Assembly (NCBI GenBank): GCA_018399715.1
Contig: JAGYNR010000012.1
Location: 1 to 36,361, forward strand
DNA length: 36,361 bases
Source: Desulfobacterales bacterium
GTDB lineage: Bacteria > Desulfobacterota > Desulfobacteria > Desulfobacterales > SKZT01
Direction of reading: 5' to 3'
The notes under the pieces are model-generated. The model worked only from the letters and a program-made list of their open reading frames with translations, was not told the origin of the DNA and ran no database searches. Below are positions 83 to 24,586 of this stretch, in pieces. Position 1 is the first letter of the stretch. Each line of letters starts with the position of its first letter. Both the position numbers and the translations under genes were made by a program.

Positions 83-2494
83 TTATAGTTGTTTTTCAAA
101 GGCTTTCAGCAAACCATTCATTTGCGCCGGATTGGAGATGTCAAGATTGTTTTCCGTCGCAATTTTCAGAATGATTTCAAGATTTATACCTTTATCAGCC
201 ATACGTTGTATTATCAAAGTATTTTCTTTCTGGTATCGCTCAAAATCTTTTCCAACGTCATCAATTTGCTTAAAAAGATTGTTTTTCAGTTCCTGAACAT
301 CAGGCCGGTTCGGCAAACGATTAATTTGTTTTCGTGCCTCATCCAATTGCCCCTTTTCGACAAATTTTTTGGATTTTTCAATTATTTCATCAATCTGTCG
401 GTTTATAAGGCTGGAATCTTCAGCATCATCAATTTGCTTAAAAAGATTGTTTTTCAGTTGTCGAACATCATCAGGCTGGTCCGGCAGACGCCTGACCTCT
501 TGACGGGCCCGATTGAACATACCTTTTTCGACTAAAGATTTTGCCTCTTTAATGACATTATCAATCAGATGATTGATCCTTTTTGCTTCTTGAGCCTGAT
601 TAATTTGACTCAGAAAATTTGTTTTCAGTTCGTCGATTCCTGGTTTGTCGGGTAGGCCATTTATGATTCGCCTTGCTTCATTAAACTGTTCCTTTTCTAT
701 GCATGATTTTGCCGATTCAACGGCTTCATTCAAAAGCTGTTTAACGGTAATTTGCTCCAGAATTTCATCAATCTCTCCGATACATTTCTGCTTGAAATTT
801 TCAGCAGGACCCTGACAAGACGTAGCCAAGAGCTTTTGTTTAATGTGTTCACAACGATTACTGATCTGCTGGAAATTATCTTCTTCAGAAAAATTGATGT
901 CGGCATGTATTATATTGCGAAATATGGTACTTGAGTCAACATCATCGGCGGCATCATCGTCTTTGAATCGGGGCAGAATTTCCAGCGCCATATCTAAAGC
1001 CGCCTGATATCGTTCGGTCTTCAAGTAGGCAAAAGCAATATACATACCAGGTCGGGCAGCCAGCATGGGCCGGATAGGTGGAGGACCATACAGGTCAATA
1101 ATTTCCTGCCAGGCTTGGTTGTTCATTAATCGATTGATAGCAATCTGCAGGGGAAATGCGCAGGCATCCCGAAGGCATTCCGTAACCGGTTTGTTCATGT
1201 CACTCCGGCAAAGTTGCATCTGAGATAAGGGAATCAGAAACCGGTGCATAGGGATATGAGCAATAAATCCGGCCATAGCGATGACTGACTCCACTTGAGG
1301 TCCTTCTAATGACTGCAAACCGAAACGAAATTCATCCCATTCCAGAAACCGGCTCATCAGCTTTAAGACCGGGTCAAAGGAAAGACATCCTGAGTGTTCC
1401 CGGCCGTCAACATCAAATTCGGCACTATCGTCAGCTCTAATGCTCCCTGTATAGCGAGAAAATTCGGGATAAAATACCATAAACCAGTAACGCATCATCG
1501 ATAGAAACCCATCGGCGCCATCCTGAATTTTTCTCAGGTCAAGACCGGTCTGGTGATGAACGCGAGAGGCATATGCCCTGTCCAGCCATACCAACGCTGA
1601 GACGGCCTCCAGCCAACGCGGAAGAAAACCCGACCGTTTCAGAATCGCCTGAGTATCGTTGATTGTTTTACTGCATTCCCGGTCCATCACAGTAGCGACT
1701 TGAGTATAAAACTGCCGTAGGTCTTCCCAGGCTTCGGTTATTTCGTCATTTCGAACCATACGCCACAGCAGTACTTTTACAAAACGTCTCCAGTAACGTT
1801 CGTAAGCTTCGATATCTTTCTGTTCACTGCTGATAGTAATCAGATTCCGAAGAACAGCAGGCTGGTCACCATCAATCAAAAGCATTTTTTCCAGGCTATT
1901 TCTTGTTTCGGTCAGATTACCGGCGATATAATCTTTATTTGCGGTCGCTGCCAGTTCTTGCAAGCTGTGGAGTAACCCTACACCGACAGCTTGGCTTTTC
2001 TGCCGTTTTATATCAGATGACGGCGGGATCACTGCGTTAAATACCATTTTGGCCTGATCAGCTATACCTGTATGGCCGTTCATAAATTCGCGGATTGTTT
2101 CTGCTGTATCGGGCGATACCTCCGGCAGAAGCCTTTCCAGTTTTTCCCGAACCACCTGATAAACGGCATCATCAGAAGAAGCCATCATCTGTAGCAGGCC
2201 AACCGGCACAAAGCCTGGAAATATCTGGTCACCGGAGCAAAAATATGTTCCCAGTTCATTTAGAAAAAGGCCGGCGGTTTCTGCCATTCCCAGCGACAGC
2301 GCATATCGTCCCCCTAAATAGAGAAGTGTTGGATCCCGATATCCATCTTCAAAAGACATTACCAGTCGGTCAAGTATTCGCTGGCGCGTCATCACATCAT
2401 ATTGTTCTGGGACATTGTCAGAAAATATCGTATTTTTCTTCAAAATGTCGTGCTTTCGGTAATTTTCATTGATTGATGGGCCCAGTCTTTTCAT
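83..2494 (-). CDS. 803-aa protein with three C-terminal 56-residue helical repeats, function unknown
   Basis: I do not recognise the family of the first ~580 residues, which look soluble and helix-rich with no signal peptide or membrane segment. The N-terminal part has TPR-like runs such as DPTLLYLGGRYALSLGMAET. From about residue 585 there are three tandem units of ~56 residues with the pattern A(K)xxxExGxxxxARxxxxxLPDxPxxxxLKxNLxxQI, each a likely helical hairpin. The last two units share a 34-bp identical DNA stretch. The ATG follows the stop of the upstream beta-propeller gene directly (TAAATG), so the two are translationally linked. A role as a scaffold or adaptor working with the propeller protein is inference from architecture only. 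A sigma-54-type promoter at 3682-3667 probably drives both genes. Confidence 0.85.
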   Translation of the reverse strand: MKRLGPSINENYRKHDILKKNTIFSDNVPEQYDVMTRQRILDRLVMSFEDGYRDPTLLYLGGRYALSLGMAETAGLFLNELGTYFCSGDQIFPGFVPVGLLQMMASSDDAVYQVVREKLERLLPEVSPDTAETIREFMNGHTGIADQAKMVFNAVIPPSSDIKRQKSQAVGVGLLHSLQELAATANKDYIAGNLTETRNSLEKMLLIDGDQPAVLRNLITISSEQKDIEAYERYWRRFVKVLLWRMVRNDEITEAWEDLRQFYTQVATVMDRECSKTINDTQAILKRSGFLPRWLEAVSALVWLDRAYASRVHHQTGLDLRKIQDGADGFLSMMRYWFMVFYPEFSRYTGSIRADDSAEFDVDGREHSGCLSFDPVLKLMSRFLEWDEFRFGLQSLEGPQVESVIAMAGFIAHIPMHRFLIPLSQMQLCRSDMNKPVTECLRDACAFPLQIAINRLMNNQAWQEIIDLYGPPPIRPMLAARPGMYIAFAYLKTERYQAALDMALEILPRFKDDDAADDVDSSTIFRNIIHADINFSEEDNFQQISNRCEHIKQKLLATSCQGPAENFKQKCIGEIDEILEQITVKQLLNEAVESAKSCIEKEQFNEARRIINGLPDKPGIDELKTNFLSQINQAQEAKRINHLIDNVIKEAKSLVEKGMFNRARQEVRRLPDQPDDVRQLKNNLFKQIDDAEDSSLINRQIDEIIEKSKKFVEKGQLDEARKQINRLPNRPDVQELKNNLFKQIDDVGKDFERYQKENTLIIQRMADKGINLEIILKIATENNLDISNPAQMNGLLKAFEKQL
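258..459 (-). repeat. In-gene tandem repeat with 34-bp identical blocks
   Basis: The 34 bases at 258-291 recur exactly at 426-459, a period of 168 bp or 56 codons. A diverged third block lies one further period away, near 594-627. They encode the LKxNLFKQIDD segment of the helical repeats at the C-terminus of the 803-aa protein. The exact identity at DNA level suggests recent duplication or gene conversion between units. Confidence 0.85.
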
Positions 2495-3607
2495 TTAAAC
2501 TCCTGTCATAACGGGATTGCCAAACAGGCGAACGTTTTTCCCGGTATAGCAGAGCAGAACACTCTCAGCAGCGGCCGGCAGAAACTTTCGGATTCCCTGG
2601 TGTTCATCATAAAGCATAATATCCTGATCACATACGGAAAAAAGTCGACCGTCATCAGTCAATCCCACCGCGATTAAAGTGTTAGGTCGCGACGGGTCAT
2701 AGATAATTTTGATGCTCTGGATTTCAAAACCAGTCCTGACCCTACAGTTAGGAAGGATTCTAATGGCTTGCCAGGGAAACCAATCAATAATACCACCCGG
2801 ATAAGCAAAAACAGAACATTGTGCCCTATGGTTATGGGCGGTGGTCTTGACCGGTCTTTCAGTCACGGCAACCTGTTTCCGTTGCCATGTACCGGTTTCG
2901 ATGCAGCTTATCGTAGTGTGGTCTTCAAGCATATATAATTTCGGCGTTTCCGTATTTATATCATTCACCCAGAAATCATCGGGATTTCCTGGAATTTTCC
3001 GGGCCGTTAACTCATTACCGTTACGATCCAGGAGATGCAGGGTTCTGGTCTTGTCAAAAACGGCAGTTAGATTTGGAGATATGGGCACGATCTTGGTAGG
3101 TAGGGAAAGCAAACGCACGTCACCGCATTGCCACAGCAAACTGGCGTTATTGTCCCAAGCCAGAACCCGTCCATCCCAAAATGCGGCAAACAGATCCCCG
3201 TTAATCCCTGTCGTTAAACAGTGAATGGGCACGTCGTCATAGAAAGCCTTTCGCAAAAAGGTTTTTTTAGTCCCTTCCATGTCATTGAAGATAAAAAGGG
3301 AACCCTCCCAGTCAGAAACAACCAGACCGTTACACCAGACCGCGTCAAGAAAACATTTGAAATGCATGTCGGGCAAAAACCAGCGTCTGGCCGGGTCCGG
3401 CCGGTTGAAGTGAAAAACTTTGACTTCATAACCATCTGTCACCCACAGCCGGTAATCGTCCTCAATAAACCAGGAGACTAAAACCGTCATGCCGACCATG
3501 AATTCAATATCTCTTGACCCGACTGGTGATGAATCCGTGTTGCTGGACACACTCGTCTTCTTAGACACGTTTTGTTCGGATTTTTTTCGAATACGGGTTT
3601 TGTTCAT
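2495..3607 (-). CDS. Beta-propeller-like protein
   Basis: This 370-aa protein has a basic, Ser-rich N-terminal tail (~35 residues), then repeated short beta-strand segments of roughly 40-50 residues that end in WD/PQQ-like strands. Examples are GSLFIFND, GRVLAWDN, TRTLHLLDRNGN, GRLFSVCDQDIMLYDE and NVRLFG. This pattern fits one propeller of about six or seven blades. No signal peptide is visible, so a cytoplasmic interaction platform is likely. It is the first gene of a two-gene minus-strand operon; the next gene starts immediately at its stop codon. The ribosome-binding site is weak. Beta-propeller proteins accompany some MoxR-VWA gene sets, and a MoxR-VWA set is encoded in this locus, but a direct role is inference. 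Blade count is uncertain because the repeats are degenerate. Confidence 0.8.
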   Translation of the reverse strand: MNKTRIRKKSEQNVSKKTSVSSNTDSSPVGSRDIEFMVGMTVLVSWFIEDDYRLWVTDGYEVKVFHFNRPDPARRWFLPDMHFKCFLDAVWCNGLVVSDWEGSLFIFNDMEGTKKTFLRKAFYDDVPIHCLTTGINGDLFAAFWDGRVLAWDNNASLLWQCGDVRLLSLPTKIVPISPNLTAVFDKTRTLHLLDRNGNELTARKIPGNPDDFWVNDINTETPKLYMLEDHTTISCIETGTWQRKQVAVTERPVKTTAHNHRAQCSVFAYPGGIIDWFPWQAIRILPNCRVRTGFEIQSIKIIYDPSRPNTLIAVGLTDDGRLFSVCDQDIMLYDEHQGIRKFLPAAAESVLLCYTGKNVRLFGNPVMTGV

Positions 3608-3666
3608 CGTTATTTGCTTTTTCAGGATAATTCTTTCTTTTTGGTTTTATCGCTATTCTTCAAATA

Positions 3667-3682
3667 AGCAATTTAGATGCCA
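3667..3682 (-). promoter_or_regulatory. Candidate sigma-54 promoter for the propeller operon
   Basis: Read on the minus strand, the sequence is TGGCATCTAAATTGCTT. It has GG (-24) and GC (-12) separated by exactly ten bases, and TTGCT at the -12 box. The consensus is TGGCACG-N4-TTGCW. Transcription would start near 3656, about 50 bases before the ATG at 3607. It is one of three such sites placed in front of the three operons of this locus. Confidence 0.6.
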
Positions 3683-3942
3683 TTTTTTTTACGCAAGTCA
3701 TTTTCAATGAGATAAACGGCCTGAACTTTTTGATAGTAACAATAGAAGCAATTGAAATTTATAGCAATTTTCTTTTCGATGACTATATATAAAAATACAA
3801 AAATTATGTCAAGAAATAAAAGGTTTCCATTTTGTGATTTTGATGACTTGAGTTCGAATTTACTATAGGACAACGATGATTGCAGTCAAAATCGGTGTCG
3901 ATATTGATCTTGTTGGCATAAGTTAAAATATTTGACACTTTT

Positions 3943-3966
3943 GTCTAAAAAATAGACATTCGTCTA
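3943..3966. promoter_or_regulatory. Possible activator-binding cluster of GTCTA half-sites
   Basis: GTCTA at 3943-3947 and TAGAC at 3953-3957 form an inverted repeat with a five-base A tract between them. A third GTCTA follows at 3962-3966. The cluster lies about 130 bases upstream of the plus-strand sigma-54-like -12 box, a usual distance for an enhancer. A TTGACA at 3932-3937 overlaps its edge but has no good -10 partner. The same cluster was not found before the third promoter. Confidence 0.3.
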
Positions 3967-4082
3967 AATTTGGGTTATTTACCATGAAAAAGATTATAAC
4001 GCTAAATACCTAATAACCTATTGATATTGATTTAGTGAAATAAAATATAGTATATCATTTTTATAATATGCCTTAATTTTTA

Positions 4083-4098
4083 TGGCATAATTATTGCT
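4083..4098 (+). promoter_or_regulatory. Candidate sigma-54 promoter for the VWA/kinase/stator/Clp operon
   Basis: The sequence TGGCATAATTATTGCT matches the sigma-54 pattern: GG at 4084-4085, ten bases, then GC at 4096-4097 within TTGCT. Expected transcription start is near 4109, giving a leader of about 137 bases that contains the palindromic repeat at 4164-4199. It shares the TGGCAT...TTGCT form with the divergent site at 3682-3667. Confidence 0.65.
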
Positions 4099-4245: not shown

Positions 4246-5790
4246 ATGAAAAAAATTATTTTTGTCTTAATATTTACAGGGGTTCTCTTTTTGGGAGTAT
4301 CGCAATCGGCATACAGTCAAAAAGAAACGAAAACCGAATTACAGCCATTGAAACTCGATATTCTGCTGGTTTTGGACAATTCGGGAAGTATGAAAAAAAA
4401 TGATCCTCAATTTTTAACGCGTGAGGTTGTTACTAATTTTTTGGATAGTCTTGGAGAAAATGCTCGTTTGGGGATGGTTATTTTTGATCAGGAGGCTACC
4501 CTTGCTGAACCTCTTGAGCGTGTGACGGATCCGAAGACTAGGACTGAGTTTTTAAAAAGTATAGATGATGTGAACTATAAAGGTCAGTTTACCAATAGCC
4601 CGGCAGCCATCGAACGAGCGGTTTATGAACTAAAAACCCACGGAAGAAAAGATGCACAAAAAGTTATCATTTTCTTGACAGACGGGATTGTCGATTCAGG
4701 GAACAAGACCCGGGATCTTGAAAGGGAAAAATGGCTAAAAGAAGATCTGACCCGGGAGAGTAAGAAGTTGGGAATTCGAATCATCGGTATTGCTTTTACG
4801 AATAATGCTGATTTTTCCCTGATCCAGACGTTGGCTATCAAAACGGATGGAGAATATTTTAGAGCATATAAAGCAGAAGATATTCGGGGGGTCTTTAAAA
4901 ACATAAACGAAATTATCAACAAACCTCCATCCACACCAGAGGTTACAGCGGTAAAGCCTAAAGTTAAAGCAGCAAAGCCCAAAATTGAAACGACTTCAAC
5001 CATTCCCCCATCGTCTCAAAAAGGCGATCTTTATCTACCGCTTGTCATAGCAGGGATAATTGCTATTTTCGTGGTTGCCGCTCTTATTTTTGTGTTTAAA
5101 AGAAAACCAAAAAAGAATATTCCGCCGGAGACTTCAGCACCGGAAATAAATTTCATACCACCTGCTGAATTAATTGATGTCAACAGTATTATTTCGGACA
5201 AAACGATACTTCTGAAAAAAAATAAAATAAAAATTGGACGTAATCCGGATAGCGATCTTGATATTGTAATTCCCAAAGATACTGTATCCAGCCTGCACGC
5301 TACTATCGAGTTTAAAGATGACTATTTTTATCTTGAAGACCAAAGAAGTACGAATAAAACGTATCTAAATAGCCAAGAAATAACGGCTAATCAACCGGTC
5401 AAATTGAAAAGTGGGGATATTATCAAATTTGATATTTTTGAGTTTAAATTTGTGTTGCCTGATCAGCTTCAGGCAGGGGGAACGAGAATTTCTGTAAAAG
5501 AACCGCAAAAAAGTGGAACCGTTTTAAGGCCCAAAAAATCAGACGGGCTTCAAAATGAACATTTGCCTCAACCCGAAAAGATAAAAGAATCTTCAGAAAA
5601 AAAGCCCGAAGATCAGGCACCTGACCAGGAAAACAAAACTCTGGTCAAGCCGGGGATGTGCCCAAACCACCCCGCCCGAAAGGCTACAGAACTCTGTCCA
5701 GTTTGTAAAAGAGCATATTGTAAACAATGTATGTCGGAAAAAGATGGAAAATATATGTGTGTTGATTGTGCAAAAAATCTTAATCAATAA
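4246..5790 (+). CDS. Secreted VWA domain, transmembrane helix, cytoplasmic FHA domain and B-box-like zinc finger
   Basis: Residues 1-25 are a signal peptide. Residues ~38-225 form a VWA domain with an intact MIDAS (DNSGS at ~44-48, later Thr, and LTDG at ~145). A Pro/Lys-rich linker leads to a single membrane helix at ~263-285 with a basic KRKPKK stop. Residues ~325-400 are an FHA domain (GRNPDSD, SSLHA, TNKTYLN), which binds phosphothreonine peptides. The last ~45 residues carry CPNH, CPVC, CKQC and CVDC pairs, resembling a B-box zinc finger. The topology places the metal-dependent VWA outside and the phosphopeptide reader inside. It is the first gene of the operon; the next genes are Ser/Thr kinases, the likely writers for its FHA domain. 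The ATG is preceded by a GGAAAGG ribosome-binding site. Confidence 0.9.
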   Translation: MKKIIFVLIFTGVLFLGVSQSAYSQKETKTELQPLKLDILLVLDNSGSMKKNDPQFLTREVVTNFLDSLGENARLGMVIFDQEATLAEPLERVTDPKTRTEFLKSIDDVNYKGQFTNSPAAIERAVYELKTHGRKDAQKVIIFLTDGIVDSGNKTRDLEREKWLKEDLTRESKKLGIRIIGIAFTNNADFSLIQTLAIKTDGEYFRAYKAEDIRGVFKNINEIINKPPSTPEVTAVKPKVKAAKPKIETTSTIPPSSQKGDLYLPLVIAGIIAIFVVAALIFVFKRKPKKNIPPETSAPEINFIPPAELIDVNSIISDKTILLKKNKIKIGRNPDSDLDIVIPKDTVSSLHATIEFKDDYFYLEDQRSTNKTYLNSQEITANQPVKLKSGDIIKFDIFEFKFVLPDQLQAGGTRISVKEPQKSGTVLRPKKSDGLQNEHLPQPEKIKESSEKKPEDQAPDQENKTLVKPGMCPNHPARKATELCPVCKRAYCKQCMSEKDGKYMCVDCAKNLNQ

Positions 5791-5807
5791 ATATATAAAG
5801 GGGAAAG

Positions 5808-7313
5808 ATGGACGTAAAACTTGAAATTATCAAAGGACCTGAACGCGGGAAAATATTTTCCATCAACGAGGTTACTACATGTATCGCTGGACGCAGCAAA
5901 GATGCTCGTTTCAGATTTTCCGAAGATGATCCTTATATATCCCGAAGACATTTTCTTCTGGAAATCTCACCCCCAAAAGTTTTCTTTAGAGATCTGGATG
6001 TCACCAATCCCTCCAGAATCAACGATCTCTATGTTGAAGAAGCGGAACTTTCTGACGGCGATATCATTGAAGTCGGCTACACCCAACTCAAGGTGTTTTT
6101 GAAACCAGACATCCGTACAAAAACTATCCGGTGTGTGAAATGCGGAAAAATCATAACGGTTTATGAAGACGAAAATCCCAAACAGGTTTGTAATGATTGT
6201 GCGAAAAAAGAAGAAACCATTCGAATTTCCGGGACACCGTCCCAGGCACCTTTGAAAATCACCTGTTCTTGCGGTAAAGACCTGACAAAATTTGCAGACA
6301 GTGATGGAAGGGCGCGGGAACTTTTGGGCATCGTTACCTATGCTTGTAAAAAGTGTCTTCCACCAAAAGGAGAGGATGCCGGGAAAAAGATCAACGATTA
6401 TGAAGTGATCAGAAAGGTGGGTGAAGGCGGTTTCGGTAAAGTCTATCTTGCATATCATTCTCCTACCTGCAGGTTGGTTGGGCTAAAGGAAATGAATATC
6501 TTCAATAAACAACTCGGGGCCCGGTTTAACCGAGAAATAAGAATCATGCGTCAAATAGCTCACAACAATATCTTGTGTTATGTGGACAACGGTCAGGACA
6601 AAAATACAGGCAAGCCCTATCTCACCATGGAGTTTGCCTCCAAGGGAAGCTTGGAGGATTTAATGATGCAAAATAACGGTTCCCTGGAACCTAAGTCTAC
6701 CGTTCAGTATATCATTCAGGTACTAAATGGTTTGGAATTTATTCATCGCCAGGGAATTGTTCACCGCGATATCAAGCCCGAAAACATTCTTCTTAAAAGC
6801 AACGGCGAAGGAAAAGGAAAATGGACCCCGAAAATTGCTGATTTCGGACTTGCCAGGGAATTTTCAAAAATCGGCGGCTCAAATCTTACCGGTTTAGGCA
6901 AGGCCATGGGTACTGTCCTGTATATGCCGCCGGAACAAATAACAGATGCCCATAATGCACGTGAACCCGCAGATATTTACGCCACGGGCGTCACGCTATA
7001 TCACCTTCTGACCGGGAAATACCCTTTCAATTTCCCTTCTCCTTTGGACATTTTAAAATTTTACCAGGAGAACAAACACCGTGCAAATTCCCCAGAGGCG
7101 GCGCTTCGATTAATGATGCAAATACAAAGGCTCAAAGTTCCTCACCAGATCGTTTTTGAAGAGGAGCCCATACCGATCAAACAAAGGAATGCCTCTATTC
7201 CATCTGATCTGGGCCAGGTGGTGGACAGAGCGATTAAAAAACCGCTTGAAGAAAGATTTCAAAGTGCAACTGAATTTAGAAGCCGATTGGAAACGGCTAT
7301 CGATAAACTTTGA
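5808..7313 (+). CDS. FHA-zinc ribbon-Ser/Thr protein kinase
   Basis: This 501-aa cytoplasmic protein begins with an FHA domain (residues ~5-95, with GRSKDA and SRRH). Two zinc-ribbon-like segments follow: CVKCG...CNDC at ~108-130 and CSCG...CKKC at ~148-185. A complete Hanks-type kinase domain spans ~195-500. Seen in it are the glycine loop GEGGFGKVY, lysine in LKEM (~226), HRDIKPENILL (~317), DFGLA (~343) and MPPEQ. All catalytic residues are present, so it should phosphorylate Ser/Thr targets, probably including partners with FHA domains. No membrane segment is seen; the membrane link may come from the preceding VWA-FHA protein. It starts 17 bases after that gene, with AAAGGGGAAAG as ribosome-binding site. 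Confidence 0.93.
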   Translation: MDVKLEIIKGPERGKIFSINEVTTCIAGRSKDARFRFSEDDPYISRRHFLLEISPPKVFFRDLDVTNPSRINDLYVEEAELSDGDIIEVGYTQLKVFLKPDIRTKTIRCVKCGKIITVYEDENPKQVCNDCAKKEETIRISGTPSQAPLKITCSCGKDLTKFADSDGRARELLGIVTYACKKCLPPKGEDAGKKINDYEVIRKVGEGGFGKVYLAYHSPTCRLVGLKEMNIFNKQLGARFNREIRIMRQIAHNNILCYVDNGQDKNTGKPYLTMEFASKGSLEDLMMQNNGSLEPKSTVQYIIQVLNGLEFIHRQGIVHRDIKPENILLKSNGEGKGKWTPKIADFGLAREFSKIGGSNLTGLGKAMGTVLYMPPEQITDAHNAREPADIYATGVTLYHLLTGKYPFNFPSPLDILKFYQENKHRANSPEAALRLMMQIQRLKVPHQIVFEEEPIPIKQRNASIPSDLGQVVDRAIKKPLEERFQSATEFRSRLETAIDKL

Positions 7314-7325
7314 TGATGGTGAGAT

Positions 7326-9275: not shown

Positions 9276-9288
9276 GAGGAGACGTTTT

Positions 9289-10617: not shown

Positions 10618-10745
10618 ACAATATTGAATAAAAGTTACCAGGCTTAAGGGTCTCAGCAAGAAATAATCAAACTATCTTTCTTGTCATTTTGCCTGTCTAC
10701 TGCGTTACACAATAATTCATGGTTATAGGTTTCCGAGGATAAATC

Positions 10746-11651: not shown

Positions 11652-11746
11652 TGTTTTGACTCGATAATCAGGTTTTAGAGCTTTATAAATTTGCATTGTC
11701 TCAACCTTATATGACAGAAGCTCGAAGATAATAGAGGAACCGAAAA

Positions 11747-12547: not shown

Positions 12548-12604
12548 GCGGTATTAGAGAAAAATGATCATAACAAACAATTTTTACAACCAGCGATAGT
12601 TTAT

Positions 12605-12626
12605 GTACCGGCAAAGATTGCCGTAC
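12605..12626 (+). other. Hairpin just upstream of the sigma-54 activator gene
   Basis: GTACCGGCAA and TTGCCGTAC form a nearly perfect hairpin with a tiny loop and one bulged base, ending 15 bases before the ATG at 12641. It overlaps no run of T, so it is not a classic terminator. It could modulate translation or protect the transcript end. Confidence 0.45.
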
Positions 12627-12640
12627 ATGGGGAATTAAAT

Positions 12641-16938: not shown

Positions 16939-16950
16939 TCAAATAGGAGT

Positions 16951-17062
16951 TATTACTCGATGATCAAGTTTTTTCCCGTCATCCCGGGTCTCCGTTCCGC
17001 TACGCCCGGAATGACGAAGTTTGTTATGAGCTGAATTAAAAAAACTTGATCATCGAGTAATA
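16951..17062. repeat. 112-bp nested palindrome (MITE-like)
   Basis: The outer arms are 24-bp perfect inverted repeats (16951-16974 and 17039-17062) with the core ACTCGATGATCAAGTTTT. Inside is a second inverted repeat (16977-16988 and 17005-17016) of CGTCATCCCGGG/CCCGGAATGACG, with 11 of 12 bases paired. A degraded further copy of the outer arm, AAAACTTAAACATCGAGTGA, lies just outside at about 17065-17084. The element fills the gap between the clpA-like gene and clpP and has no coding content. It could be a non-autonomous mobile element and could also terminate or fold the transcript. Confidence 0.8.
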
Positions 17063-17099
17063 CAAAAACTTAAACATCGAGTGAAAGGAGTTATAAAAG

Positions 17100-17702
17100 A
17101 TGGGATATGTCAAAATACCTCATGTTATTGAACTGACAGAGCAGGGGCAAAGACAGGTCGATATTTATTCAAGAATCCTGACCGACCGTGTCATTTTTTT
17201 AACAGGTGAAATCAACGATGATGTAGCGGATATCATTATTGCGCAGTTGTTTTATTTGGAATCTGAGGACAGCAAAGCAGATATATTTCTATATATCAAC
17301 AGTCCAGGCGGTGTGGTAACTGCTGGCCTGGCTATCTATGATACCATGCAGTATATTTCCTGTGATGTAGCGACAATATGTTTGGGACAAGCCGCATCCA
17401 TGGGCGCCATGCTCTTGGCAGCAGGAGAAAAGGGAAAAAGAATGGCTCTGCCCAATGCCCGTATTATGATTCACCAACCTCTCGGAGGTGCCCAGGGACA
17501 GGCATCCGATGTTGAGATACAGGCACAGGAAATAGTGAGGATTAAACAAAAATTAAACGAAATATTAGTTGAACATACTGGTCAACCCATTGAAATTATT
17601 AAAAAGGACACAGACCGGGATTTTTTTCTTACCGCTGAAGTGGCTGTTGAATATGGCCTGATTGACAAGGTGGTTAAAAAAAGAACCATGTACAAGAATT
17701 AG
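17100..17702 (+). CDS. clpP: ATP-dependent Clp protease proteolytic subunit
   Basis: At 200 aa it has the usual length of ClpP and the complete catalytic triad in family context: Ser100 in GQAASMGA, His125 in IMIHQPLGG and Asp174 in DTDRDFF. The INSPGG motif of the substrate-binding strand is also present. The protein forms a 14-subunit chamber that degrades chains threaded in by an AAA+ partner. It is placed behind a ClpA-like gene rather than next to tig/clpX/lon, so it is probably an accessory ClpP dedicated to this locus. The clear ribosome-binding site AAAGGAG lies 9-10 bases before the ATG. A stray mobile-like palindrome separates it from its partner gene. Confidence 0.96.
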
Positions 17703-18033
17703 ACTGCATCGATTGTTTTCCTAACCTATGGATAAATCAGTCATTTCAATAATCTCAAAGTTTATCCGCGTTACTGGTATCTAATAAAAAGACCCTTTTT
17801 GCAAACAATTACCAACCTATAATTTATATTCCTTTCTGTTGCAAATCACCATAACTATTTAAAATAATAGCAATTAAAGTAAAGAAAAACAATTTTTCAG
17901 AAATACTTTCACGATTGGCACGGCCTTTGATTCATACAGGTTAAACGGCAGAACAGATATAAAAATCGTAAAAACCGAAGAACCTGTAACTCGATATTCC
18001 AGTTTTAAGGATAAAGAAAAAAGGGGGGAAATA
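17703..18033 (+). other. 331-bp intergenic region upstream of the second operon
   Basis: No gene is seen. It holds a sigma-54-like promoter at 17916-17932, two AACCTAT boxes (17723-17729 and 17814-17820), a GGATAAA/TTTATCC inverted pair (about 17729-17767), two TTGCAAA boxes near 17799 and 17839, and the ACTCGAT...GTTTT motif at 17988-18006. No obvious terminator follows clpP, so read-through from the first operon is possible. Confidence 0.6.
17916..17932 (+). promoter_or_regulatory. Candidate sigma-54 promoter for the AAA/MoxR/VWA operon
   Basis: TGGCACGGCCTTTGATT matches the consensus TGGCACG-N4-TTGCW at every position except GA in place of the -12 GC. Spacing of GG to the -12 pair is the required ten bases. 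Expected start of transcription is near 17942, about 90 bases before the ATG at 18034. The -12 mismatch lowers certainty, but the complete TGGCACG box is unusual in this AT-rich stretch. Confidence 0.5.
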
Positions 18034-20307
18034 ATGAATCAGCCGCAATCACAAACCTGGAATAATGATCTGCAATCCGGACAGGCTACCGAAGCGCTGA
18101 AACAGGCTGCTGAATTCATGTCATCGCTGTTTGGGCTTGAAATCATCGTTAATCAAGATGGAATGCGGCTTTATTCCAGCATTCGTAAGGGGGCTGGGCA
18201 GGTCATCGGTGTGCAGGATGTTTGTGGAAAAATTATCAACGATGAGTATATTGTTTTTCAATTCAAAGTAGCCGAAGCGTCCACTAGTTTTCAATTGCCT
18301 TGGGGTATGATAGTTGAAGCTATAACCAGACTGGGACCTCGGATGACCGTCATAAAACCGCCTGTCAACTCCAACGACAAAACCACCGCCTTGTGGGTTG
18401 AACTGCGCACCAATCCGACTCCCATGGCCCCTATTCGAGCCGCAAATTTTTCCAGGCAGCTTGAAATTATTAACGATATCGCCAACCGGCTTCAGGCGGC
18501 AATTCCCAGCACAGACGAACGGGAAGCGGCTTTAAAGAAAAAATTCAAGGATTTTAAAGGGTTGGTTACTCCGATACTCCCGGCTCCGGTTGACACGGTT
18601 CAAAAATCGGATCTGACCGTAGCAAAAGAGATCGATTATTTTTTAACAGCATCCTGCCCGGTTGCTATTTTTTCGCAACATGATATTGTTACCCATTATT
18701 TCTTGGAATTACTGGCCAGCCTGATCAATCAAAAAACAACCCGTCACCCCCTTGGCAGACTGACACCCGGCAGTATAAGAGCCATCGAGCTGCTGGAATT
18801 GATAAAAAAAACCCCCGTAGTTCTGGTTATTCGCGTTGAACAGATTACCTTCGGCTCGGTCTATGAAAGCAATGCTGAAATCACTGGGTTTTTGCAGTCA
18901 CTTTTGGCTATCAATAGGCCATGTATATTTGTGGGCGGCTCGATCCAGATTCAGAATTTATTTTCGGGGGGCCAAATAGCTGCCAACTCCCCTCTTTCAC
19001 CGGTTCTCATTGCTTTACCGAACAAAGTTGCCAATGAAGATCTGATAGACTGTTCTTTAAGACAGGCGGCTGAATTTTGCGGCGGACTGGCAGCCGGAGC
19101 CCAAAACCAAATCCGCTCGGCTATTCTGGCACACACCCGTCACTTGCCCAACGATCAGTTCACTCATATTCTCCCATTTATCGCCAACAGCAGCTTAAAC
19201 CTGTGGACAGCACAGGGCTCATCGGGTTTAAAACAGGAACTAGAAAAAACCGTAGCTTTATTAAGCGGTAAAAAAGAAACTGTAGCCGGAATGGCCGCGC
19301 AGTTTTCCGCTCAGCGGCCAGATTCGATTCAGGCTTGCTTTGTCGACAAATTAAGTCATCCAAAGCAACTGCTGGACGATCTGAAATCTGATATTTTCGG
19401 TCAAGATTCTGTCCTGGAAACCGTTGCCAACCGATTGTGCCAGGAAGCCGTCAGCCGTCCCTCTAACCAGCCGATACGTTTGTGTCTTGTCGGTACGTCC
19501 GGTACCGGAAAATCTCAAACAGCCATGCGATTGGCTGGTTACCTGGGTATTCCTTATGAAAATATCGATGCTGGTGGATATTCAAACATTCAGATGGCCA
19601 ATACACAGCTTTTTGGAAGCGGGCCCGGTTTTGTTGACAGCAATAAAACACCGCGATTGATGAAAATTGCCGCTTATCATCTGGGATGTGTTCTGGAGGT
19701 GTCCGATCTTGACCACGCAACCCGGGAGGTACGTGAGCAATTGAGCGAACAATTTTTGCAGATCTTGCAAACCGGTCAGGCACAAAGTGGTCATGGCACC
19801 ACCTTTTCATGTGCTTCCCTGATTATCATATTCACATTAAATTTACCGGATGGAGCCGACGAACGGTTGTTTACTCCGATTGGCTTCGGACAACCGGAAG
19901 CCGGGGATATCCTAAATACCCTGACAACGGAATTGAAAAAAATGCTGTCGCCCGCATTTCTGTCCCGAATGGGGCAAGCCGTGCTGTTCAACCATTTGTC
20001 ACAACGCACATTGGCAATGATTATGGAAAGCGCTCTTGAAAAAAGCCTGCGCACGGCCGGAAAAAATTTTGGTATCGATATTAATCAGATACAGATTTCC
20101 CCAAGCCTCGGAAAAAATTTTATAAAAATAAAAAACAAAGACGCAATTGCTTTTGGTGCCCGACCTCTGGAAGATCGGGCCCGGGAACTGGTGGTTAACG
20201 CCTTTTTGGCTTTTATTGAAAACCACAATATGCAGCTTGCTGGTACCGTCAACCTGGCCGTAAAACTTTCCCAAAAAGGGGAAAGGCTTTTGCTAACAGC
20301 TTATTAA
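18034..20307 (+). CDS. Clp/HSP100-related double-AAA protein with degenerate ATP sites
   Basis: The 757-aa protein has an unassigned N-terminal region, a middle region (~200-380) with AAA-like strands but no visible Walker motifs, and a C-terminal AAA_2/Clp D2-type module. The latter has an intact Walker A GTSGTGKS (~487) and the conserved arginine and sensor-2 regions (LSPAFLSRM, FGARPLEDRARE). The Walker B, which should read like LFDEIEKA, reads LEVSDLDHA (~553-562), so the Asp-Glu pair is Ser-Asp. ATP binding is therefore likely but hydrolysis doubtful. The middle region may be a dead D1 module. It is the first gene of the second operon, behind a sigma-54-like promoter and with AGGGGGGAAA as ribosome-binding site. 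It may act as a structural or regulatory hexamer for the following MoxR/VWA proteins. Confidence 0.75.
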   Translation: MNQPQSQTWNNDLQSGQATEALKQAAEFMSSLFGLEIIVNQDGMRLYSSIRKGAGQVIGVQDVCGKIINDEYIVFQFKVAEASTSFQLPWGMIVEAITRLGPRMTVIKPPVNSNDKTTALWVELRTNPTPMAPIRAANFSRQLEIINDIANRLQAAIPSTDEREAALKKKFKDFKGLVTPILPAPVDTVQKSDLTVAKEIDYFLTASCPVAIFSQHDIVTHYFLELLASLINQKTTRHPLGRLTPGSIRAIELLELIKKTPVVLVIRVEQITFGSVYESNAEITGFLQSLLAINRPCIFVGGSIQIQNLFSGGQIAANSPLSPVLIALPNKVANEDLIDCSLRQAAEFCGGLAAGAQNQIRSAILAHTRHLPNDQFTHILPFIANSSLNLWTAQGSSGLKQELEKTVALLSGKKETVAGMAAQFSAQRPDSIQACFVDKLSHPKQLLDDLKSDIFGQDSVLETVANRLCQEAVSRPSNQPIRLCLVGTSGTGKSQTAMRLAGYLGIPYENIDAGGYSNIQMANTQLFGSGPGFVDSNKTPRLMKIAAYHLGCVLEVSDLDHATREVREQLSEQFLQILQTGQAQSGHGTTFSCASLIIIFTLNLPDGADERLFTPIGFGQPEAGDILNTLTTELKKMLSPAFLSRMGQAVLFNHLSQRTLAMIMESALEKSLRTAGKNFGIDINQIQISPSLGKNFIKIKNKDAIAFGARPLEDRARELVVNAFLAFIENHNMQLAGTVNLAVKLSQKGERLLLTAY

Positions 20308-20321
20308 GAAAGGAAATCGTA

Positions 20322-21035
20322 ATGTATAGAACCATTTATCCTATTTCTAACCAAAAAAAGTACAAGCAGGCCGGTCCTGACGATCTCATCGAATTTTTAC
20401 CGCCGCCCGGCGAGCATCCCTTGATTATCAGCAAGGGAATAGCCGAAATTCTGGTTTATGGAGTTGTCAACCGGGAAAAAATCCATTTATCCGGACGAAC
20501 CGGCCAGGCAAAAACCAAGTTAATCAATGACTTGGTTGCAGAACCCAAAAATTTTGAGATTATCTGTCATCAATTGGGATATCCGGTCAGACCATTGAAA
20601 GTATTTGCCTGTGAGATGGCTATGTTTGAAGCGCCATCTGAACTCTGGCAGCACCGGTCCCTTGAAAACGGCAATACCTTTGACGAACTCAGCATCCTGA
20701 TGCAGATGTTGAAGCAGGCCGCTCAGTTGACGGATACTGCATATCCGGTGATCCATCTGAAAGAGTTCGGGCGCGTTCATTCGTCGGCAGTGCAAGCTGG
20801 TTTGCCGAATATCATGGCCGAAGGTACTATCCGGACACCTGATAATCAGCTAATAAACGGCAGGTCAATGGCTTGGCTGGCAGACAGCAATTATCAGGAT
20901 GCGGACGGGCAATATACCCTGGTCAATCTTGATGACGCCTTAAAGCGAAGATTTACCTTGCATATCTGTATGGAAATTTTCAGTCCTGACCAGGAGTTGG
21001 CAATATTGCAGCAAACGGAAAAATTTTACCAATAA
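20322..21035 (+). CDS. Short MoxR-like AAA+ protein with altered Walker B
   Basis: This 237-aa protein resembles the ATPase core of MoxR/CbbQ-type AAA+ proteins. Seen are Walker A SGRTGQAKT (~57-65), a sensor-1-like WLADSNY, and the arginine-finger-like ALKRRF near the end. The Walker B strand reads VIHLKEFG (~144-151), with Lys where Asp should coordinate magnesium, although the following Glu is kept. It stops where the helical lid should begin; the next gene, 13 bases downstream, looks like that lid. It is probably a chaperone-type ATPase acting on or with the VWA protein encoded two genes downstream, as in MoxR-VWA pairs (RavA-ViaA, CbbQ-CbbO). It may be a non-hydrolysing paralogue. Confidence 0.8.
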   Translation: MYRTIYPISNQKKYKQAGPDDLIEFLPPPGEHPLIISKGIAEILVYGVVNREKIHLSGRTGQAKTKLINDLVAEPKNFEIICHQLGYPVRPLKVFACEMAMFEAPSELWQHRSLENGNTFDELSILMQMLKQAAQLTDTAYPVIHLKEFGRVHSSAVQAGLPNIMAEGTIRTPDNQLINGRSMAWLADSNYQDADGQYTLVNLDDALKRRFTLHICMEIFSPDQELAILQQTEKFYQ

Positions 21036-21048
21036 AAAGGAGGCTTCA

Positions 21049-21345
21049 ATGACGGAAAAAGAATTGCTTGAAAAAGTGATAAAGCTAGGAGACATTATTC
21101 GCGGTTACCAGGCCGAAGGTCAACTGCAATCAGTCCCGCCGCCGACCATTTATGGTTATCTTTCGCTTTTAAGACTGGCCAGGGGGTTATCCCATTTAAG
21201 CTTAAAGCAAGTGGCGTTTGCCACATTGCTGGGCAATGCCAGCCCCGAAGATTACAAAATCCGAAATAATGCCTTCTACGAAGCTTTTGGACTCCGCAAC
21301 GCCCAGAATGATGACGATCCGACGCTGGCCGGCGATTTGTTTTAG
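21049..21345 (+). CDS. Small helical protein resembling a detached MoxR/CbbQ AAA lid
   Basis: A 98-aa, all-helical protein with a perfect AAGGAGG ribosome-binding site. The segment GDIIRGYQAEGQLQSVPPPT followed by IYGYLSLLRLARGL resembles the C-terminal lid of CbbQ/NorQ-type AAA proteins, where a region like LRxxxxxGxLxxxPSxRxLxxxAxLIxxGL follows the arginine finger. The preceding gene encodes an AAA core that lacks this lid. The pair therefore looks like one AAA protein split in two, with a stop, a new ribosome-binding site and a new start between the halves. Alternatively it is an independent adaptor. The lid assignment rests on pattern resemblance only. Confidence 0.7.
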   Translation: MTEKELLEKVIKLGDIIRGYQAEGQLQSVPPPTIYGYLSLLRLARGLSHLSLKQVAFATLLGNASPEDYKIRNNAFYEAFGLRNAQNDDDPTLAGDLF

Positions 21346-21360
21346 AGAAAGGAGGTGTCC

Positions 21361-23559
21361 GTGAATCATTTTCAAATGAGTAACCAGTCGACACGCATGC
21401 GGCATTCAAAATTTGAATGGGCGGGATACAGTCTTGGTGATGGCTTTAAACAGGAGCTTTCTTTTCAAGACCGGGCCAAACCCCAGCAGGAATTCTATAA
21501 AAAAGCCAGCCAGATTCAACAAGCGATTGCCGCATTACTGGAAGGTGAAACCGAACATGCCCTGCATCCACGGATAAAAGTGCAATTAACACCATTTTTC
21601 ACGGACTACCCTTCTCAACTTTCCGCCTATGCAGCGTTAGGACTGACGGGTTTTCTTGAGTTTAAGACCAGAAATCACAGTAACTATTTACTCGACGCCA
21701 TAAAAGAATACTTAAAACAACCTCATAAAATTGACAACGTGAGGGTCGATAAAAAAGAATATCAACAGGTTATACGAACCGTCTGTGAGTGGGTGTGGAA
21801 TCGATTAATTCTGGAGGATCTCAGTCGCACCACGGCCAAAGCACCGTTGGAAATCTACAGGTTGTTTGTAGCATCACAAGAAAACCTGCGATTCAGTTGC
21901 ATTTCAGAAATCATCCGGGCTGTCGTACTCTTTGGTGACGTGCTTCCACCGCTTGAGAAATTGAATTTACATCCGTTAACCCAGGCCATAATCGAAAAAT
22001 GCATCCATATCAGTATGCCTTATTTTATAAGGATAAATAATGCACCCGCTAATGAATTTCCTAAGCTGGGAGTCATCTGGATACGCAAAATGAGCAAGAC
22101 CCTTTCGACCTATTTACCACCACCGAAACCAGCATATAACATTGATGATCTGAATGAAATTCTTAATAAACTGAATTTGGAACTTGAAAATATTGATAAA
22201 GATAAAGACCATGACCATCAAAAAAACTCCCCATTACCTGTTTCGGAAACAGTGGATACAGACAAGGAAGACAAACAAACTCAGCCCCCCTACCTGAATC
22301 GTCTTAAATCCGGAAACGGCAACCAATCTGATTTCCGTTTCAACGCTCTGGATGCGCCCCAACCTCCGGCTTTGGCACCTCCGGAAAGCGTGGCCGGTCA
22401 TATCGCCCAGGCCAGGTCGTCAAATAAAGAAACGACTGACCCGAATCTGAATTCCAACCATCCGACTGCTGATGGACCGAATAAAGATGACCCAGGGTTG
22501 AATGACATCATGAAAGATCTTAACAAAGCCCTTAATCAAGCGGGTAGACAGATGAACAATTTTGAAGATATCCGTTATGACAGGTTGAAAAATAATCAAC
22601 TGTTCAGACCGTTTGAAAAAGGTCCCATACAGGGCTTTTCTATGGAAGGACATGAAATTAAGCAGAAATTTGGTGACCAGGAAGCCGGCGGGCATTTATT
22701 TGATAAACAACTGCCAACAAGCAACGACTGGCAAAGTGTTCAGAATTTGCGGCAAGAGGCATTTCCTATCACCCGACAGTTGGTGAAAAACCTCTATCCG
22801 GCCTTGGAACATCAGCCAAGGGCACAGGCATTTCGGTCAAACGGATTGATTGATTCCCGCAGGCTGGCCCTATCCAATTTTTCAACGACAGTTTTCAAAC
22901 GATATCAGCAGCAATCTTTAAATTCCCGAAATGGACGCCCGTTGCTGGTTATTGCCTGTGATGGTTCAGCATCCTTAGGTAAAAAAGAAATGACGACATT
23001 AAAAGTGCTGGCAACCGCATTTTTAGAATCTTCGGTTAAAAGCCGGCTTCAGGTAATGGCCGCGCTCTATCACTCGGATTCCATTCACAATGCACCGGTC
23101 GTGCAATGGATCTATCACCCTCATAAATCACCGATGAACAGTCCGAAGCAGGGAATAAACGCCCTGGCCGCTCTTCCGAAATCCGGACAGGGTACCCAGT
23201 CGGATGCCATCAGCTTGTCATTTGTCTTAAACGAGGCCAAAAAGTTGGCCCGGAATAATATGACTTATCTGGTATTGCTGACAGATGCCAAATGGAACCA
23301 GTCTTATAAGCAAAAGCTGAAAGACCTGTCGGCCACCGAAGAAGTCAGTGGAACATTTGAAAATGCTTATAAGGAATTCGCCGGAAAGTTGGATGTAACC
23401 ATTATTGCCACTAAAGCTAAAACCGGTCTGGAAGATCTGGTGAATAAAAGCATTCATATTGACAAGGCTGAACAAGCGGATCCATTTCGGGTTGCCGAGA
23501 AAATCGCTTTATATGTCGCTTCTTGCTTACGTGAGCGGAAACACATCAATTTCCTTTAA
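21361..23559 (+). CDS. VWA-domain protein of the MoxR-VWA class
   Basis: The ~732-aa cytoplasmic protein has an uncharacterised helical N-terminal half, a low-complexity, Asn/Asp/Pro-rich hinge (~265-390), and a C-terminal VWA domain (~528-730). The MIDAS is complete: CDGSAS, the Thr in QGTQSDA, and LLTDAKW. This CobT/CbbO/DUF2201-like layout typically works with a MoxR AAA+ ATPase to remodel or insert metal into a target. The MoxR-like core and lid-like genes lie directly upstream. GTG at 21361 is chosen because AAAGGAGG ends five bases before it; an ATG at 21376 is too far from that site and the GTG at 21355 overlaps it. Confidence 0.87.
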   Translation: MNHFQMSNQSTRMRHSKFEWAGYSLGDGFKQELSFQDRAKPQQEFYKKASQIQQAIAALLEGETEHALHPRIKVQLTPFFTDYPSQLSAYAALGLTGFLEFKTRNHSNYLLDAIKEYLKQPHKIDNVRVDKKEYQQVIRTVCEWVWNRLILEDLSRTTAKAPLEIYRLFVASQENLRFSCISEIIRAVVLFGDVLPPLEKLNLHPLTQAIIEKCIHISMPYFIRINNAPANEFPKLGVIWIRKMSKTLSTYLPPPKPAYNIDDLNEILNKLNLELENIDKDKDHDHQKNSPLPVSETVDTDKEDKQTQPPYLNRLKSGNGNQSDFRFNALDAPQPPALAPPESVAGHIAQARSSNKETTDPNLNSNHPTADGPNKDDPGLNDIMKDLNKALNQAGRQMNNFEDIRYDRLKNNQLFRPFEKGPIQGFSMEGHEIKQKFGDQEAGGHLFDKQLPTSNDWQSVQNLRQEAFPITRQLVKNLYPALEHQPRAQAFRSNGLIDSRRLALSNFSTTVFKRYQQQSLNSRNGRPLLVIACDGSASLGKKEMTTLKVLATAFLESSVKSRLQVMAALYHSDSIHNAPVVQWIYHPHKSPMNSPKQGINALAALPKSGQGTQSDAISLSFVLNEAKKLARNNMTYLVLLTDAKWNQSYKQKLKDLSATEEVSGTFENAYKEFAGKLDVTIIATKAKTGLEDLVNKSIHIDKAEQADPFRVAEKIALYVASCLRERKHINFL

Positions 23560-23575
23560 AGAAGAGGAGGTGCAT

Positions 23576-24586
23576 ATGTTGAATGCAGCAGCGCCGAGAA
23601 AAAAGAAGGTCCGGCAATATATCGGCCCATTGTTGAAACATCTCAAAAATTATGACAATTATCGAATCGAGCTTCAAAACCAAGGCGGTAACGCCAGAGC
23701 AATTCGCCAATTGACAAGCTTGCTGAATAAAAAGTTTTTAATCAATTCTCCATATGAAACAAACGTCATGTCTTTGACTGACCAGCAGGCATTAAAAAAA
23801 CTGCTTAATCAGTACGACATTATTTTCGATATCCGGCAAAATCGACTTGGCATGCCATTATATTATGTATGCTGGACATATTATGATTATTATTCAAACA
23901 CCAGTCTTATTATAGACGACCTTTATATAAGCCCCGATTATCAATTCAGTGATGAGCGATTCGTTAAGCTTATGTATAGCGGTCATGAAATATGGCACAT
24001 ACGGGTAGCACCTTTCTGGGATGCGTTGTACGAAGAATTGAAAAAGAAAGTCATCTACGATGCCGAAGACCGAACAGATGCCGTCTTGACAATGCTGGGT
24101 AGTCATATCCTGGGTGCGGCCTGGCATAGTGATCAAATGCTGGCAGTTCTGACCGCCAGACACTTTGGTCTGAATCATTTTTATCAGACGATAGAGCTTC
24201 TTTACCTGATTCTTTCGGGTGAACTCACTCAAATCCGAAATATGCTTGACCCGGATATTTTGAATTTTTTTGATCACATTTATACTAACCCGTCTGTTCA
24301 CCGGTTTCTAGTATCACTTGATACCATTGATGGAAATGCAATCAGCCAATTGCCTGCTACCGCACTCAATTTGTATCAAGATCTGAATGCGGCATTTTCC
24401 CGCTTTTTAACGACACAAGTAAGCTGGGGATTTAATCATCATAACATCGCCTTATGGAAAGTCGTTTTTGGTAACTATTACCGTCTTGATCTGGTAGCGG
24501 CGTCTCTGTCGAACAATGAAGAGCTGAGCAAGGCGTGCAGCATTTTAGAACAGCGGGCAAAAGACATTATTGAAGCGGTATTTTGA
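23576..24586 (+). CDS. Putative zinc metallopeptidase-like protein (HEIWH motif)
   Basis: A 336-aa protein of unrecognised family. Residues 137-141 read HEIWH inside YSGHEIWHIRV, which fits the HExxH helix of zincin metallopeptidases with hydrophobic flanks. Acidic residues downstream (YDAEDRTDA, ~160-170) could include a third zinc ligand, but this is not certain. There is no signal peptide or membrane helix. A strong GAGGAGG lies just before the chosen ATG; the frame is open further upstream but overlaps the VWA gene without a ribosome-binding site. It is the last gene of the AAA/MoxR/VWA operon. In DUF2201-type MoxR sets a putative metallopeptidase also accompanies VWA and MoxR modules. 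It may be the effector of this set (inference). Confidence 0.75.
   Translation: MLNAAAPRKKKVRQYIGPLLKHLKNYDNYRIELQNQGGNARAIRQLTSLLNKKFLINSPYETNVMSLTDQQALKKLLNQYDIIFDIRQNRLGMPLYYVCWTYYDYYSNTSLIIDDLYISPDYQFSDERFVKLMYSGHEIWHIRVAPFWDALYEELKKKVIYDAEDRTDAVLTMLGSHILGAAWHSDQMLAVLTARHFGLNHFYQTIELLYLILSGELTQIRNMLDPDILNFFDHIYTNPSVHRFLVSLDTIDGNAISQLPATALNLYQDLNAAFSRFLTTQVSWGFNHHNIALWKVVFGNYYRLDLVAASLSNNEELSKACSILEQRAKDIIEAVF

Follow-up and report, generated by a model that had tools for sequence, protein, structure and literature searches.

A candidate kinase-phosphatase switch with a Clp-type protease, and a separate Clp-type AAA/MoxR-like/VWA cassette beside it, in a Desulfobacterales bacterium

We analysed a 36,361-nucleotide stretch of DNA from a Desulfobacterales bacterium (contig JAGYNR010000012.1, hereafter the window), which is one entire contig of a fragmented genome (2.58 Mb in 243 contigs, 76.67% complete). 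Positions 83-24586 hold three neighbouring transcription units that a preliminary description, made from the sequence of this contig, had read as one membrane-triggered machine ending in proteolysis. Our analysis supports a smaller machine, in which the phospho-signalling genes of unit 2 stand together with a Clp-type unfoldase, while unit 3 is an independent cassette that happens to adjoin them. Domains were assigned with Pfam, and also with NCBIfam and PADLOC (16 window proteins scanned in the latter). Relatives were sought in a class sample of 291 genomes including the window's own (290 others), in a phylum sample of 344 other genomes, and in the collections named below; the loci L166, L168 and L169 were examined as the copies present in genomes G289 and G167.

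Gene content of unit 2

Unit 2 spans positions 4246-17702. Its mobile core consists of a VWA-FHA membrane protein, a kinase, a PP2C phosphatase, an FHA-kinase and a Clp-type unfoldase, and G049, a second Desulfobacteria genome, serves below for comparison. The genes are as follows.

4246-5790, + strand: core; VWA-FHA membrane protein (Pfam FHA, E 5e-19)
5808-7313, + strand: core; FHA-kinase with a Cys-rich linker (Pfam FHA, E 2e-9)
7326-9275, + strand: second Ser/Thr kinase, fused to an FGE-sulfatase domain (Pfam)
9352-10617 (frame 9265-10617), + strand: accessory; MotA/ExbB-like subunit with a C-terminal extension (Pfam MotA_ExbB, E 5e-10)
10746-11651, + strand: accessory; putative MotB-like partner with an Ig domain and a second hydrophobic helix (Pfam He_PIG; gene order)
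11747-12547, + strand: core; PP2C phosphatase (Pfam; 50% identity to that of G049)
12641-14473, + strand: FHA-sigma-54 activator (Pfam FHA, E 4e-14)
14473-16938, + strand: core; ClpA/ClpC-like unfoldase with IGI at the presumed ClpP-docking loop (Pfam, NCBIfam, alignment)
17100-17702, + strand: module-specific ClpP paralogue (Pfam; identity comparison)

The two Ser/Thr kinases, the PP2C phosphatase and the three FHA proteins named in the preliminary description are all matched by Pfam, and the motifs that we take to be key to the kinases, the phosphatase, the FHA domains and ClpP are all present. The VWA-FHA protein runs from a hydrophobic start through the VWA domain and a membrane helix (residues 266-284) to the FHA domain, a layout predicted to place the VWA domain outside and the FHA domain inside. 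In the FHA-kinase, the FHA domain is N-terminal (residues 26-90) and is followed by the kinase domain (residues 198-411). The second kinase varies between loci, being fused to the FGE-sulfatase domain in the window and represented in relatives by large kinases, one of them with WD40 repeats. The architecture of the FHA-sigma-54 activator recurs in G049 and in the Pseudomonadota locus L160.

The unfoldase has two Clp-type AAA domains according to Pfam, NCBIfam and its solved relatives, and is 50-53% identical over its full length to its counterparts in G049 and four Chlorobiaceae. Its NCBIfam scores are 758 bits for ClpB, 713 for ClpA and 656 for TssH, all below the respective cut-offs, and its closest solved chains are ClpC, so that calling it ClpA-like, as had been done, is a choice; what stands of that claim is a Clp-type unfoldase and a ClpP, both recognised by Pfam. 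A hydrophobic-G-hydrophobic pattern occupies what we presume to be the ClpP-docking loop in all six aligned unfoldases, and reads IGI in the two that have an adjoining ClpP gene.

The module ClpP is 80% identical to the module ClpP of G049 (81% by tblastn) and 62% identical to the housekeeping ClpP of its own genome, values which indicate that it is co-inherited with the module. Two ClpP genes are present in the window's genome, and by eye its housekeeping copy lies between trigger-factor-like and ClpX-like genes. At E<=1e-20 G049 likewise has two copies, and each of the 10 other genomes searched has one, including six that bear all or part of the core. A different arrangement is seen in the Competibacteraceae locus L159, where a 1190-residue protein (L159:24-3596) fuses a ClpA-D2-like AAA part to an FtsH AAA domain and M41 peptidase. 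This gene lies 4.7 kb from the VWA-FHA gene, with genes for a large kinase and an FHA-kinase also nearby, an arrangement that is suggestive, though not proof, of a replacement AAA+ protease. Genome G147 had been considered as a second full locus and was set aside: its ClpA gene adjoins, by eye, ClpS-like and aminoacyl-transferase-like genes and is thus probably a housekeeping gene.

Spread of the unit 2 core and independence of unit 3

The whole core occurs together in the window, in G049 and in three Chlorobiaceae (loci L161, L162 and L165 of genomes G624, G625 and G627, respectively), while L164 and G645 show the FHA-kinase and unfoldase only, on contigs of 4.2 and 3.8 kb. The window and G049 additionally carry the FHA-sigma-54 activator and ClpP. 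The G049 locus comprises this activator, the VWA-FHA protein, two large kinases, the PP2C phosphatase (50% identity), the FHA-kinase (45%), the unfoldase (50%) and ClpP; within 60 kb it has no match to the MotA/MotB-like pair and no unit 3. Further genes of its operon (L111:5526-10406) code for a radical SAM-SPASM protein, a phosphopantetheine-binding protein and a pair of Cys-rich proteins, of which one or both have ankyrin repeats.

Scanning the GTDB species collection with an alignment of the FHA-kinase N-terminal part recovered 13 loci, of which five (G049 and four Chlorobiaceae) adjoin an unfoldase gene and two (L159 and L160) have a partial core. Among 150 genomes around and including G624, five carry an FHA-kinase at E<=1e-80, one of them cut by a contig end, and the unfoldase gene directly follows in all five. 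Within the class sample, the N-terminal part is found in 7 of the 290 other genomes (E<=1e-8); besides G049 these comprise seven FHA-kinase loci in six genomes, with no unfoldase match in the stretches seen. Homologues of the VWA-FHA protein occur in 26 of the 290, and among the 18 neighbourhoods viewed only that of G049 has other core genes, the remaining 17 being without the rest of the core. In a tree of 17 FHA-kinases, the window groups with Competibacteraceae (support 100/98) and G049 with four Chlorobiaceae (100/100), although G049 belongs to the window's own order. These sequence relationships indicate that the unit 2 core has spread horizontally across phyla. Searched against viral contigs, the unfoldase alignment found relatives at 34-43% identity among the best 80 of 350.

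Unit 3, a Clp-type AAA/split MoxR-like/VWA cassette, spans positions 18034-24586.

17916-17931, + strand: weak sigma-54-like site TGGCACGGCCTTTGAT upstream of unit 3, with the -12 GC missing
18034-20307, + strand: protein with a degenerate first AAA domain and a Clp-D2-type AAA domain (Pfam AAA, NCBIfam, model)
20322-21035, + strand: MoxR-like ATPase core (gene order; alignment with a fused homologue)
21049-21345, + strand: C-terminal part of the MoxR-like protein, as a cistron with its own ribosome site AAAGGAGG
21355-23559, + strand: VWA protein (DxSxS motif)
23459-24586, + strand: fifth protein, fold unassigned, start uncertain with similarity from about 23609 (gene order; alignment)

The double-AAA protein of the preliminary description was borne out, with a P-loop in the second domain and none in the first. 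Its structural model (mean predicted local distance difference test score, pLDDT, 75.8; predicted template-modelling score 0.50) matches ClpA, ClpC or ClpB in all of the 50 best matches listed, aligning over about 620-740 columns, though loosely (template-modelling scores of 0.33-0.37 by query length). An FtsH type, which had been considered, is ruled out by both sequence (NCBIfam, P-loops) and fold (the Clp matches). The splitting of the MoxR-like protein holds, as the two cistrons and the separate ribosome site show; it is split in three of five cassettes and fused in the other two. Its identity as MoxR is weak, with no Pfam match in the window and, for the fused homologue of genome G227 (P-loop GPTGTAKS), a match to AAA_5 at E 2e-4, just below the cut-off. 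The VWA assignment is similarly mixed, scoring 20.3 bits against a Pfam cut-off of 23.8 and keeping the DxSxS motif in all four aligned proteins. The MoxR-like and VWA genes, both below the Pfam cut-off, adjoin in all five cassettes. The claim of an HExxH protein was not upheld: the HEIWH of the fifth protein becomes HEIYY, HENYF and RETSF in three homologues, leaving HExxH in one of four aligned sequences, and a metallopeptidase was rejected. A fold search with its model (mean pLDDT 68.1) returned nothing below E 0.3.

Near full-length relatives of the two-AAA protein occur in four of the 290 other class genomes (E 9e-209 to 3e-73), the next-best matches (E 3e-22) covering an AAA domain only. 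In all four the two-AAA gene is followed, as in the window, by the MoxR-like gene and then the VWA gene, and in the three whose contigs extend far enough by the fifth gene. The unit 2 core is absent from the stretches seen of all four (8.2, 40, 60 and 7.1 kb), and a search of these entire genomes gave no match to the FHA-kinase N-terminal part at E<=1e-8. G227, whose chromosome is complete, has both the unit 3 cassette and a VWA-FHA gene that lacks core neighbours, separated by 3.6 Mb. The unit 3 VWA alignment found no relatives in the 344 other phylum-sample genomes, on viral contigs or on plasmids. In G069, a neighbouring sigma-54 activator gene (L085:17760-19463) is divergent from the unit 3-type cassette.

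These distributions bear directly on the reading of MotA/MotB-like pair, kinases, ClpAP and MoxR-VWA cassette as one machine, which would have to be a recent union confined to this lineage. Units 2 and 3 do adjoin in the same orientation, and the weak site TGGCACGGCCTTTGAT lies upstream of unit 3. However, unit 3 occurs without unit 2 in all four other genomes, no other genome was seen with the two side by side, and the MotA-like gene was not found in any of the seven further genomes that carry the core or part of it (see below). We rejected this reading, since related genomes keep unit 3 and the core apart and the units are independently inherited, and regard a union of this kind as improbable. 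The supported machine is the smaller one, whose phospho-signalling and Clp-type unfoldase genes stay together in the window, G049 and three Chlorobiaceae, and in the parts seen of two further genomes.

Control, accessory genes and possible role of unit 2

Unit 1 lies divergent from unit 2, and the sigma-54-like sites between them are listed with its genes.

83-2494, - strand: TPR-containing protein, function unassigned (Pfam TPR_19, E 1e-7)
2495-3607, - strand: second unit 1 protein, without a match in Pfam, PADLOC or NCBIfam
3667-3682, - strand: sigma-54-like promoter TGGCATCTAAATTGCT upstream of unit 1, GG/GC core intact, one mismatch
4083-4098, + strand: sigma-54-like promoter TGGCATAATTATTGCT upstream of unit 2, GG/GC core intact, one mismatch

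Across the window, sigma-54-like sites allowing up to two mismatches number 17 against 16.9 expected, which is chance level. The sites at 3667 and 4083 both fall between genes and are strong matches, and a fraction of about 0.002 of 3000 base shuffles of the region contain one. Because the site at 17916 lacks the -12 GC, the earlier statement that each unit opens at such a promoter is convincing for units 1 and 2 only. In G049 a site TGGCATGAGAATTGCC with the GG/GC core and two mismatches lies 40 bases upstream of the VWA-FHA gene, and one upstream stretch in L160 has a site of the same quality. The TPR protein of unit 1 has no relatives at E<=1e-10 in the 290 other class genomes. A beta-propeller had been suspected for the second unit 1 protein and was dropped in view of the empty database searches. 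Elsewhere in the window, a large protein with a C-terminal VWA domain (25352-28150) is unlinked to the three units and has no NCBIfam match at E<=1e-10; no Rfam family reaches its gathering score.

These elements suggest a possible signal path. The membrane VWA-FHA protein, the two kinases (one with its own FHA domain) and the PP2C phosphatase would set a phosphorylation state; the FHA-sigma-54 activator would sense that state and drive its own operon and the divergent unit 1 through the sigma-54 promoters; and phosphorylated partners docked by FHA domains would be passed to the ClpA/ClpC-like unfoldase for destruction by the module ClpP. The MotA/MotB-like pair would be a lineage accessory, for which sensing of the envelope or a proton-driven input is the likeliest role. 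Envelope damage or phage attack is the probable trigger, in which case the system would act like a kinase-kinase-phosphatase (KKP) defence system with proteolysis as its output.

The accessory pair was claimed earlier as a MotA/MotB-like membrane pair, and the first member stands: its MotA_ExbB domain scores 39.6 bits against a Pfam cut-off of 22.9. Its likelier start is the ATG at 9352, which has a ribosome-site-like stretch, rather than 9265. In the MotB-like protein Pfam found neither a MotB match nor a peptidoglycan-binding domain, its sole match being the Ig-like He_PIG domain, which is flanked by two hydrophobic helices. An Asp opens the first helix and is common to five of seven other compared MotB-like proteins, so that the putative identity draws on topology, this Asp and gene order, and not on a domain match. 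With the MotA-like protein as query, no such gene was found in the seven further genomes bearing the whole core or a part of it, while a nearly identical query recovers the window's own genome; the pair is therefore treated as accessory. Six class genomes of one genus do have MotA-like relatives (32-36% identity) in unrelated settings, and were discarded as related loci, no other window gene being present in the stretches fetched. In one stretch of this genus (L040:9014-18549), the MotA-like gene has two separate MotB-like genes a few kb away, and the large gene preceding it is common to two genomes of the genus.

Relatives of the MotA-like protein on three plasmids bring in a further explanation, a Zorya-like stator defence in which phosphorylation gates a MotA/MotB channel and ClpAP is incidental. 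On an Anabaena plasmid (L173:7857-10436), a MotA-like and two MotB-like genes directly follow a type III-B CRISPR locus, a viperin gene also being close by, and this three-gene stator-like set may be a defence accessory. On a Microcystis plasmid, the MotA-like gene adjoins a DNA methylase. A Rhizobium plasmid (L174:81-6554) has a divergent gene for a kinase with a PDZ domain and then consecutive PP2C, FHA, MotA-like and MotB-like genes, the last without a Pfam match; from its gene content it would be an independent, if single, support for a link between phospho-signalling and stators. A weak match of the MotA-like protein to the PADLOC ZorA profile (E 9e-8, residues 207-422 of the 450-residue reading) and the Asp kept in the MotB-like helix point the same way. 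Set against these are the lack of a recognisable peptidoglycan-binding domain, the absence of ZorC, ZorD and ZorE among the PADLOC matches listed for the 16 window proteins, and the failure to find the MotA-like gene in other core genomes searched. We consider a stator-centred defence quite unlikely. Among phages the MotA-like protein has no relatives, and the MotA alignment found none on viral contigs.

The proposed proximity to defence islands holds for two Chlorobiaceae and not for the window itself. PDC and HEC are candidate defence systems rather than proven ones. In L161 (G624), the PP2C and FHA-kinase genes enclose PDC-M28A, B and C; HEC-01A/B follow, with JetB/JetA beyond. JetC of this split Wadjet system is on the far side of the module, at a distance of about 30 kb from JetB, and the intervening DNA holds the kinase-unfoldase module together with further candidate defence genes (L275:1-3207, L161:16833-19057). 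L165 has AriA/AriB-like (PARIS-like) genes (E 5e-24 and 1e-14) plus JetA/JetB; L159 has a PDC-S45 match and L162 an FRG-domain gene nearby. PADLOC returned no match for L161:6351-9458, L161:11614-11988, L275:10325-11182 and L275:11270-12256, nor for the single neighbour tested in each of L160 and G049.

We favour, as somewhat more probable than its competitors taken together, the reading of unit 2 as a horizontally mobile, KKP-like phospho-switch coupled to an AAA+ protease, with unit 3 separate. Several observations weigh against it. We infer kinase control of the unfoldase from gene neighbourhood alone, and six of the 13 FHA-kinase loci, all distant, have no unfoldase within reach. ClpP adjoins the unfoldase in just two of the five loci in which the gene after the unfoldase is visible, and the unfoldase itself ranks higher as ClpB than as ClpA in NCBIfam. 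The stretches viewed in Chlorobiaceae showed no FHA-sigma-54 activator, and four of six upstream stretches of relatives have no sigma-54-like site with the GG/GC core. As for mobility and defence, FHA-kinase relatives were found neither on viral contigs nor on plasmids (plasmids: E<=1e-60 for the whole protein, E<=1e-8 for the N-terminal part). Neither the window nor G049, for which one neighbour was tested, has a recognised defence gene beside it; the two PADLOC-tested neighbours of L162 have no match, and its outer flanks are housekeeping-like on both sides by eye. The PADLOC matches of the core proteins are generic (kinase, PP2C, activator, AAA), and those of the 16 window proteins add only a coiled coil and the weak ZorA match.

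The cluster probably serves a stress or anti-virus response. A regulator of stress or envelope homeostasis with no defence role, in which sigma-54 and Ser/Thr phosphorylation tune protein turnover, would fit the dedicated sigma-54 activator and promoters, the lack of recognised defence genes beside the window and the wide occurrence of the VWA-FHA gene apart from the rest of the core. It fits less well with the patchy spread of the core across phyla and its placement amid defence genes in two Chlorobiaceae, and we hold it to be a serious but rather unlikely alternative. Equally tentative is a stronger form of the favoured reading, namely an undescribed class of bacterial immune system in which infection would lead an FHA-read kinase-phosphatase switch to license a dedicated ClpAP (elsewhere FtsH-type) protease, a proton-driven MotA/MotB-like sensor at the membrane being optional; we put this forward as a doubtful possibility. 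If the phospho-switch reading is right, unit 2 would be a concrete bacterial example of regulated proteolysis under the direct control of Ser/Thr phosphorylation, and would extend kinase-phosphatase defence modules to a proteolytic output. The analysis also tells apart two systems that by eye seem one, and indicates a recurring association of kinase, PP2C, FHA and stator genes.

Comparison with known systems

Among the matches listed from the open-licence PubMed Central (PMC) literature, none describes the combined gene set. One survey of MotA/MotB relatives (PMC12505986) does not contain the term 'FHA'. For unit 3, the nearest counterparts in the available part of PMC7159879 are the FtsH-type MoxR-vWA ternary systems, with which it shares a two-AAA protein missing its first P-loop and would share the pairing of a MoxR-like with a VWA protein; GPTGTAKS is described there as a P-loop variant of the FtsH and beta-propeller ternary systems. 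Unit 3 differs from the systems as described in that part in that its active AAA domain is of Clp-D2 type, the MoxR-like protein comes as two cistrons in three of five cassettes, and it has no named effector.

Unit 2 has in common with ClpAP and ClpCP a Clp-type two-AAA unfoldase and ClpP, but differs in the divergent N-domain of the unfoldase, the second, paralogous ClpP and the phospho-signalling operon around them. The threonine phosphorylation pathway of type VI secretion likewise combines a kinase, a PP2C phosphatase, an FHA protein and a Clp-type ATPase; in contrast, no secretion-machine gene was recognised among the Pfam-annotated genes of the window.

Zorya is close to the window for the stator only: as far as the available part of PMC11890865 describes ZorA and ZorB, both pairs combine a MotA-like protein that is extended at its C-terminus with a MotB-like protein bearing an Asp in the membrane, whereas the window pair has no peptidoglycan-binding domain that we could find and shares its operon with kinases and a phosphatase.

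The system closest in logic to unit 2 is KKP, a prophage defence module, judged on the available part of PMC11341870. Both are mobile and both combine two Ser/Thr kinases, one with an FHA domain, with a PP2C phosphatase. Two domain features of KKP, a cold-shock domain on one kinase and an FHA domain at the C-terminus of its partner kinase, have no equivalent in unit 2, where the FHA domain is N-terminal rather than after the kinase domain and Pfam gives no cold-shock match. The PP2C and kinase genes are clustered as in KKP, but do not form an adjacent PP2C-kinase-kinase triplet. Beyond what that part of the source describes for KKP, unit 2 adds the VWA-FHA protein, the sigma-54 activator and a Clp-type unfoldase with ClpP.

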